A stretch of 64,000 nucleotides of DNA. Origin: Sciscionella sediminilitoris (GTDB lineage: Bacteria > Actinomycetota > Actinomycetes > Mycobacteriales > Pseudonocardiaceae). The notes beneath the pieces were generated by a model. The model saw only the letters and a program-made list of their open reading frames with translations. It made no database searches and had not been told where the DNA came from. Of the stretch, positions 47,350-49,454 are shown in pieces. Positions within the stretch are counted from its first letter, which is position 1; the number at the start of each line of letters is the position of its first letter. The position numbers and the translations under genes are program-made. The stretch is taken from assembly GCF_000737195.2 (NCBI RefSeq), contig NZ_JALM01000068.1:1-64000 (forward strand). Direction: 5' to 3'.

Positions 47350-47919
47350 ATCAGCTCCGAGTCGCGCATCAATGAGCGCATCCGCGTTCCCGAGGTCCGT
47401 CTCGTCGGACCGAACGGTGAGCAGGTCGGCATCGTCCGCATCGAGGACGCACTCCGGCTCGCCGGCGAAGCGGACCTCGATCTCGTCGAGGTCGCCCCGC
47501 AGGCCCGCCCACCGGTCTGCAAGCTCATGGACTACGGGAAGTTCAAGTACGAGAGCGCGCAGAAGGCTCGCGAGTCACGCCGCAACCAGCAGCAGACCGT
47601 CATCAAGGAGCAGAAGCTCCGGCCGAAGATCGACCCGCACGACTACGAGACGAAGAAGGGCCACGTGGTCCGCTTCCTCGCGCAGGGGCACAAGGTCAAG
47701 GTGACGATCATGTTCCGCGGCCGCGAGCAGTCTCGTCCCGAGCTGGGGTTCCGTTTGCTCCAGCGGCTTTCCGACGACGTGCTCGAGTACGGCACCGTCG
47801 AATCGGCGCCGAAACAGGACGGCCGCAACATGATCATGGTGCTCGCGCCGACCAAGAACCCGAAGCAGCGGCCCAAGGCGCAGGCCACGACCGATCAGGC
47901 GACGACCGAGACCGAGTGA
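47350..47919 (+). CDS. infC: Translation initiation factor IF-3 (AUC start)
   Basis: The 189-residue protein begins [19 protein letters not shown] and continues with [25 protein letters not shown] and [24 protein letters not shown], the IF-3 signature. The conserved start corresponds to ATC at 47350, with GAGGAGG at 47338-47344; no ATG, GTG or TTG lies at a suitable place. An ATG 29 codons upstream (47263) would add an unrelated extension and lies inside the hairpin. AUU/AUC starts let IF-3 repress its own synthesis, because IF-3 discriminates against non-AUG starts. rpmI and rplT follow. Confidence 0.9.
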
Positions 47920-48224: not shown

Positions 48225-48605
48225 GTGGCACGCGTCAAGAGGGCGGTCAACGCCAAGAAGAAGCGCAGGACGACGCTCGAGCAGGCGAGCGGCTACCGCG
48301 GCCAGCGCTCCCGGCTCTACCGCAAGGCGAAGGAGCAGAGCCTCCACTCGCTGAACTACGCCTACCGGGACCGCCGCGCCCGCAAGGGTGACTTCCGCAA
48401 GCTGTGGATCACCCGGATCAACGCGGCCGCGCGGCAGAACGGCATCACCTACAACCGCCTGATCCAGGGCCTCAAGGCCGCGGGCGTCGAGGTGGACCGC
48501 AAGAACCTCGCCGAGCTGGCCGTGCACGACGCCGGTGCGTTCACCGCGCTGGTCGAGGTGGCCCGCGCGAACGCGGACGCGCAGCCGGTTCCTGGCAAGG
48601 ACTGA
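48225..48605 (+). CDS. rplT: 50S ribosomal protein L20
   Basis: The 126-residue basic protein [28 protein letters not shown] with [19 protein letters not shown] is L20, an early assembly protein. The start is GTG 48225. Its stop TGA (48603-48605) is in the same frame as the tsnR coding region downstream, with no canonical start between them. Confidence 0.98.
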
Positions 48606-48632
48606 GGGATCAGCGACACAGGCGACACACAG

Positions 48633-48681
48633 CGACCCGGGGCAGGTTCTTCGGTATTCACCGAGCGAACGCCCCGGGTCG
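48633..48681 (+). promoter_or_regulatory. Large stem-loop at the rplT-tsnR junction
   Basis: CGACCCGGGGC (48633-48643) and GCCCCGGGTCG (48671-48681) are perfect 11-bp complements. Within the loop TCGGT (48651-48655) and ACCGA (48660-48664) form a second stem. The structure spans the position where tsnR should start and its first conserved codons. It could limit readthrough or translation of tsnR. No T-run follows. Confidence 0.7.
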
Positions 48682-49454
48682 TTGCCGCGCGGAGGCTGAT
48701 CCGCCGGGCGGAACGCACCAAGACCGGGCGCTTCCTCGCCGAGGGGGCGAACGCGGTCGGTGCCGCTTTGGAGAACGCCCCGGTGGTGCACGAGTTGTTC
48801 GTCACCGAGCAGGCGGGGAGCCGCCACCGGGGGCTCACCGAGCGCGCCCGCGACCGCGGGGTCCCGGTGTCCACGATCACCGATAAGGCCGCGGCCGGGC
48901 TGTCCGAGACGGTCACTCCGCAGGGGATCCTCGCGGTGTGCGGGCTCATGGATGTGCCCGTGGAAACCGCGCTGGCCGGGAGTCCGCGCCTGGTCGCGGT
49001 GCTGGCCGGGATCACCGATCCGGGCAATGCGGGCACCGTGCTGCGCACCGCCGATGCCGCGGGCGCGGACGCGGTGCTGTTCGCCGGGCAGACCGTGGAC
49101 CCGCACAACGGCAAGTGCGTGCGCGCCTCGGCGGGCAGCCTGTTCCACGTGCCGGTGGCCAGGGAACCCGAGCTGAGCTCCGCACTGCGGGCCTGCCGCG
49201 ATGCCGGGCTGCGGGTGTTCGGCACCAGCGGAACCGCGCGGCGGCTCGCCTATCCGGGAGCCGAGTGGCTCGCCGGGCCGACCGCGTGGGTGTTCGGCAG
49301 CGAGGCACACGGGCTGAGCGAGGCAACCGGGGTTGACGAGTTCCTCGCGCTGCCCATCCACGGTCGCGCGGAGAGCCTGAACCTGGCCGCGGCGGCCTCG
49401 GTTTGCCTGTATACATCGGCATTCACCGATCGACCCGAGAACCGCCATGCGTAG
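48654..49454 (+). CDS. tsnR: TrmH/SpoU family rRNA 2'-O-methyltransferase
   Basis: About 266 residues. Family N-terminal sequence FTERTPRVVAARRLIRRAERTKTGRFLAEGANAV is readable from 48657, followed by the SPOUT domain with AVLAGITDPGNAGTVLRTADAAGADAV, VFGSEAHGLSEATG and RAESLNLAAAASVCLY. It methylates a 23S rRNA ribose. The expected start codon position holds GTA (48654-48656), and no ATG, GTG or TTG occurs in frame until TTG 48768, which would remove about 38 conserved residues. The start is therefore uncertain. It follows rplT as in mycobacteria. Confidence 0.88.
   Translation, partial: VFTERTPRVVAARRLIRRAERTKTGRFLAEGANAVGAALENAPVVHELFVTEQAGSRHRGLTERARDRGVPVSTITDKAAAGLSETVTPQGILAVCGLMDVPVETALAGSPRLVAVLAGITDPGNAGTVLRTADAAGADAVLFAGQTVDPHNGKCVRASAGSLFHVPVAREPELSSALRACRDAGLRVFGTSGTARRLAYPGAEWLAGPTAWVFGSEAHGLSEATGVDEFLALPIHGRAESLNLAAAASVCLYTSAFTDRPENRHA

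Follow-up and report, generated by a model that had tools for sequence, protein, structure and literature searches.

The window analysed here, 64,000 nucleotides of Sciscionella sediminilitoris DNA in which every feature discussed below lies on the forward (+) strand, carries an operon with the gene order infC-rpmI-rplT-tsnR-pheS. The infC gene (47350-47919), which encodes IF3, begins with an ATC codon that follows GAGGAGG, and rplT (48225-48605), which encodes ribosomal protein L20, runs from a GTG start to a TGA stop at 48603-48605. The conserved part of tsnR, a gene for an RNA methyltransferase of the SpoU/TrmH family, extends from 48657 to 49454, or from 48609 if an ATC codon at that position is its start. 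As an initial annotation of this DNA had stated, tsnR lies in the rplT frame across the TGA. This frame is open from 48606 to 49454. A Pfam substrate-binding domain matches residues 7-94 of TsnR. Against the NCBIfam model for NshR/TsnR thiostrepton-resistance methyltransferases the protein scores 34.2 bits, far under the cut-off of 425; the product is placed in the SpoU family, and the name tsnR is used here by gene position and habit alone. In the genus of L062 (genome G027), tsnR has a long insertion rich in Ala and Pro at mid-gene.

No ATG, GTG or TTG occurs in the tsnR frame between the rplT stop and a TTG at 48768, and at the family start position this frame reads GTA (48654-48656), both as first described. 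The 51-nt gap between rplT and tsnR, GTA included, is identical in the independent assembly of Sciscionella marina (DSM 45152, G001/L066), which makes a sequencing error unlikely. The proposal that the start codon was recently lost by mutation fares no better, given the same bases in S. marina and the fact that relatives generally have neither ATG nor GTG at the position of 48654. The identity of the gap says little about constraint because the two Sciscionella species are close: the other gaps of the operon are also near-unchanged between them, and rplT, tsnR and pheS differ at about 7% of their fourfold sites, so that gap invariance was rejected as too weak a signal of constraint.

Besides the GTA codon pointed out in the initial annotation, the gap holds ATC at 48609-48611, 3 nt past the rplT stop; no other near-cognate codon lies in the tsnR frame of the gap. 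A Shine-Dalgarno-like AAGGA (48597-48601; duplex -4.9 kcal/mol) lies 7 nt before this ATC and may contribute to its use; Shine-Dalgarno strength does not discriminate among ATC, GTA and TTG in the window. The junction reads GGACTGAGGGATCAGCGACAC in Sciscionella, and its CTG at 48602-48604, which overlaps the rplT stop (CTGA), stands where relatives have a putative start in frame, but is out of the tsnR frame here.

To place this arrangement among its relatives, the rplT-tsnR junctions of 60 relatives were pooled with those of 80 named genome loci and of another 80 genomes of the family, giving 209 distinct junctions. The gap lacks a canonical start in 107 of the 209, so the missing start is a clade-wide trait and not a local oddity. 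At 178 of the 209 junctions the tsnR frame passes through the triplet that overlaps the rplT stop, with CTGA as the overlap in 174/178; the gap is devoid of canonical starts in 103 of these 178 CTGA-frame junctions, and every one of the 103 keeps CTG in position and frame. The other two frames account for 31 loci, 27 of which have a canonical start in the gap, and the four exceptions are the two Sciscionella species, whose only near-cognate codon is ATC 48609, and L043 and L047, which carry CTGCCTGA with CTG again in the tsnR frame. CTGA is found at 103/103 no-start loci of the CTGA frame vs 21/31 other-frame loci (p = 1e-7, without correction for kinship). Because GC-rich genes often have C before TGA, the CTG itself is weak evidence, and it is the conserved frame that counts.

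Frame and start type are associated over all loci (Fisher p = 3e-6), a value inflated by kinship since it becomes p = 0.18 with one locus per genus. A sturdier test is the count of changes on the tree, in which the set without a canonical start shows at least 43 gap-length changes and 3 frame changes, compared with 59 gap-length changes and 20 frame changes in the set with one; a tree test of independent pairs had too few pairs. Stops in the gap are likewise uneven, with 3 in the tsnR frame vs 16 and 30 in the other frames. At 28 loci no canonical start exists all the way back to the in-frame stop, and 24 of these have the overlapping CTG; the remaining four are the two Sciscionella species, L043, whose CTG lies 4 nt upstream, and L061, which is N-rich. 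A further 78 CTGA-frame loci have a same-frame canonical codon about 190-200 nt upstream inside rplT, which makes a long overlapping ORF possible there. Pairing with the anti-Shine-Dalgarno sequence averages -5.2 kcal/mol before the CTG vs -4.0 kcal/mol 30 nt and -2.5 kcal/mol 60 nt upstream, a signal to which the Lys-rich 3' end of rplT may contribute. Two loci, L048 and L054, have rplT-tsnR gaps of 470 and 383 nt that are open in the CTGA frame (~128-157 codons) and could encode a long N-terminal extension; both also have a GTG directly before the conserved start.

The frame kept through changes in gap length, the lack of an X XXY YYZ slippery heptamer from the final 60 nt of rplT (0/103 loci) and the CTG of the no-start loci together make CUG reinitiation the most economical reading, in which the ancestral tsnR start would have been a CUG overlapping the rplT stop (CUGA) and reached by termination-coupled reinitiation. 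Thirty-two relatives have ATC or ATT as the second codon after the CTG, for example CTG ATC AGC GAC in L030, and Sciscionella reads CTG, then AGGG, then ATC AGC GAC. To judge from these two species, the CTG of the genus seems to have been displaced from the tsnR frame, as a 4-nt insertion would do, and the start would have shifted to ATC 48609, most likely the tsnR start in Sciscionella with AAGGA upstream of it; for this codon the evidence comes from a single lineage with two species. The relatives keep a candidate start that overlaps or adjoins the upstream stop in a conserved frame, and the overlap is lost in the window. Overall, we think it probable that ribosomes just finishing rplT begin tsnR at a near-cognate codon across this actinobacterial clade, CUG in most relatives and AUC in Sciscionella. 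A non-AUG start with reinitiation, one of several options listed in the initial annotation, is accordingly the best supported of them.

Downstream of the rplT stop the junction is predicted to fold into a nested hairpin. Its left arm (48630-48643, core CGACCCGGGGC at 48633-48643) and its right arm (48671-48684, inside the tsnR codons for P-R-V-V) form a main stem of 14 pairs with one G-U in the predicted fold, and the 11-bp stem first reported within it (48633-48643 with 48671-48681) is exact. The inner stem-loop (48646-48670), which contains GTA 48654, is nested as described, but the 5 bp assigned to its stem become 10 predicted pairs with one bulged base (48646-48655 with 48660-48665 and 48667-48670). 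The predicted fold has an energy of -65.1 kcal/mol (z -5.5) and none of 200 shuffles was equally stable; the genome holds a single instance of the hairpin pattern, and a search of Rfam gave no match to the junction region. In Sciscionella only, an additional outer stem of 8 bp is predicted between GGATCAGC (48607-48614) and GCTGATCC (48695-48702). This outer stem (48607-48702) includes tsnR codon 15, which is ATC (Ile) here and a Thr codon in most aligned relatives.

The hairpin is also found across the surveyed junctions. When the left arm was located by its similarity to CGACCCGGGG, with the right arm ignored in the search, it was present in 183/209 loci, and all ten core pairs form in 147/209. 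Pair 8 takes all six standard forms (GC, AT, TA, CG, TG and GT); it tracks the wobble base of a conserved Pro codon, and on the left arm the encoded residue varies (Gly, Glu, Ala, Val). Core pairs are formed in 94.0% of cases vs 88.5% when right arms are permuted among loci, with a maximum of 89.6% in 2000 permutations. These two-sided changes and the permutation result support selection on RNA pairing. The hairpin, which covaries strongly in most junctions, is a distinct RNA element, conserved and apparently undescribed. In a search largely confined to the open literature we found no report of such a tsnR start or hairpin.

The hairpin begins about 16 to 25 nt into tsnR, and in Sciscionella the core of its left arm (48633) lies at +25 from ATC 48609, one of the two commonest CTG-to-core spacings in the relatives. 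Such a position would put it near the leading edge of a ribosome on the start codon, where it could hold the ribosome on a weak start. At least nine of the ten pairs form in 64/102 loci with a canonical start vs 91/107 without, and because the hairpin is kept at canonical-start loci its role must go beyond enabling a weak start; ribosome dwelling on the start, transcription attenuation and mRNA processing are all possible. Less likely than not, though a serious contender that bears on the hairpin part of the reading only, is an attenuator or mRNA-processing site that ends the ribosomal-protein part of the operon and is unrelated to start selection. Its location directly behind rplT and its retention in lineages with canonical starts would fit such a site, but there is no T run after the hairpin stem, as a T-run intrinsic terminator would have, and the position near the ribosome edge suits a translational role as well. 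Actinobacterial terminators that lack a T run have, however, been proposed. In the Rhodococcus-type loci L109, L110 and L120, the left arm contains a GTG and still pairs with the right arm, so that here the stem itself may harbour a canonical start.

Three other ways of starting tsnR deserve consideration. Initiation at GTA 48654 in Sciscionella, as a GTN start like the GTC of Streptomyces sigR (PMC5472188) that descends from the GTG of relatives, draws on the GTG found at exactly this position in L010, L020 and L038 and on the same GTA in S. marina. We regard it as unlikely, since GTA is two positions away from ATG and lies in the predicted inner stem, and since the corresponding codon is CCG, CTC or another codon in most no-start relatives, which must therefore start upstream. 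Production of TsnR as an L20-TsnR fusion, by -1 slippage in the relatives or UGA readthrough in Sciscionella, seems less likely again. The junction frame is open, rplT and tsnR share one frame in the window, and a minor fusion product is known from the AUGA overlap of a Mycobacterium tuberculosis gene pair (PMC11260477), but besides the missing slippery heptamer, the relative frame varies by lineage in a way that no single recoding event can cover, and a canonical start usually appears where the frame moves. Readthrough of the TGA, raised in the initial annotation, would in any case be limited to the few lineages in which the two genes share a frame, and it is disfavoured. The same holds, more strongly, for translation from the internal TTG 48768 with the upstream part untranslated: this TTG is the first in-frame canonical codon and has G-rich sequence upstream, but starting there would remove about 37 residues, many of them invariant in 12 relatives, and most of the Pfam substrate-binding domain match. 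Codons 1-37, moreover, differ between the two Sciscionella species by 4 synonymous changes and 1 nonsynonymous change (a small count), and we consider initiation at this TTG very improbable.

The reinitiation reading at a near-cognate start has parallels in known systems. IF3 represses non-canonical starts, and infC itself starts with ATT in Escherichia coli and ATC in Streptomyces (PMC5472188). Like sigR of Streptomyces, tsnR would be an actinobacterial gene in a translationally coupled operon with a non-canonical start that annotation programs miss; IF3 is the natural repressor of the sigR GTC start (PMC5472188), whereas for tsnR such repression is hypothetical, and tsnR differs in its codon (CUG, or AUC in Sciscionella), in the overlap or contact with the upstream stop and in the covarying hairpin behind it. 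The AUU/AUC start of infC, with its IF3 autoregulation, belongs to the same operon and codon class as tsnR, but infC has a strong Shine-Dalgarno sequence and starts on its own, in contrast to the weak one of tsnR, which lies inside rplT, with the start at the rplT stop. Because tsnR sits in the infC operon with a start of the same class, IF3 control is a natural hypothesis, and we infer that IF3 may repress the tsnR start as it does that of infC. In the uPPE2-PPE2 pair of M. tuberculosis, termination-reinitiation accounts for most translation across the AUGA overlap and a fusion product is minor; three bases belong to both start and stop, and the downstream gene is in the -1 frame (PMC11260477), as for tsnR of the relatives. 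The tsnR overlap is CUGA instead of AUGA, is conserved across many genera, has a hairpin a short way downstream and is lost in Sciscionella. CUG starts have been called rare in mycobacteria (PMC11260477). The L20-binding leader RNAs of Firmicutes and Gammaproteobacteria are likewise structured RNAs of an infC-rpmI-rplT operon, but they precede the operon genes, whereas the tsnR hairpin comes after rplT and, as noted, has no Rfam match. More tentatively, the junction could act as a translational switch throughout the clade, with the CUG/AUC start at the L20 stop and the covarying hairpin behind it making the dose of methyltransferase follow L20 translation and the level of IF3; this seems to us doubtful as a whole.

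To our knowledge, few non-AUG starts in bacteria are well characterised, those of infC and sigR being two of them. The tsnR gene appears to have retained a start of this kind over many actinobacterial genera, throughout a family and beyond, and gene callers restricted to ATG, GTG and TTG would cut or misplace the N-terminus of TsnR. The finding is real and larger than what was first seen in the window, comprising an apparently clade-wide non-AUG start, a covarying hairpin and a genus with even its CUG out of frame; as all of the evidence is comparative, we hold this with moderate confidence. Since IF3, which penalises such starts, is encoded in the same operon, a link between initiation fidelity and RNA modification is directly testable. 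The start of infC itself is ATC in 130 of the 160 loci with a readable codon (repeated genomes included). In several genera (L012, L015, L084, L099 and L168), GCC, GCG, TCC or GTC takes the place of ATC at the infC family start.
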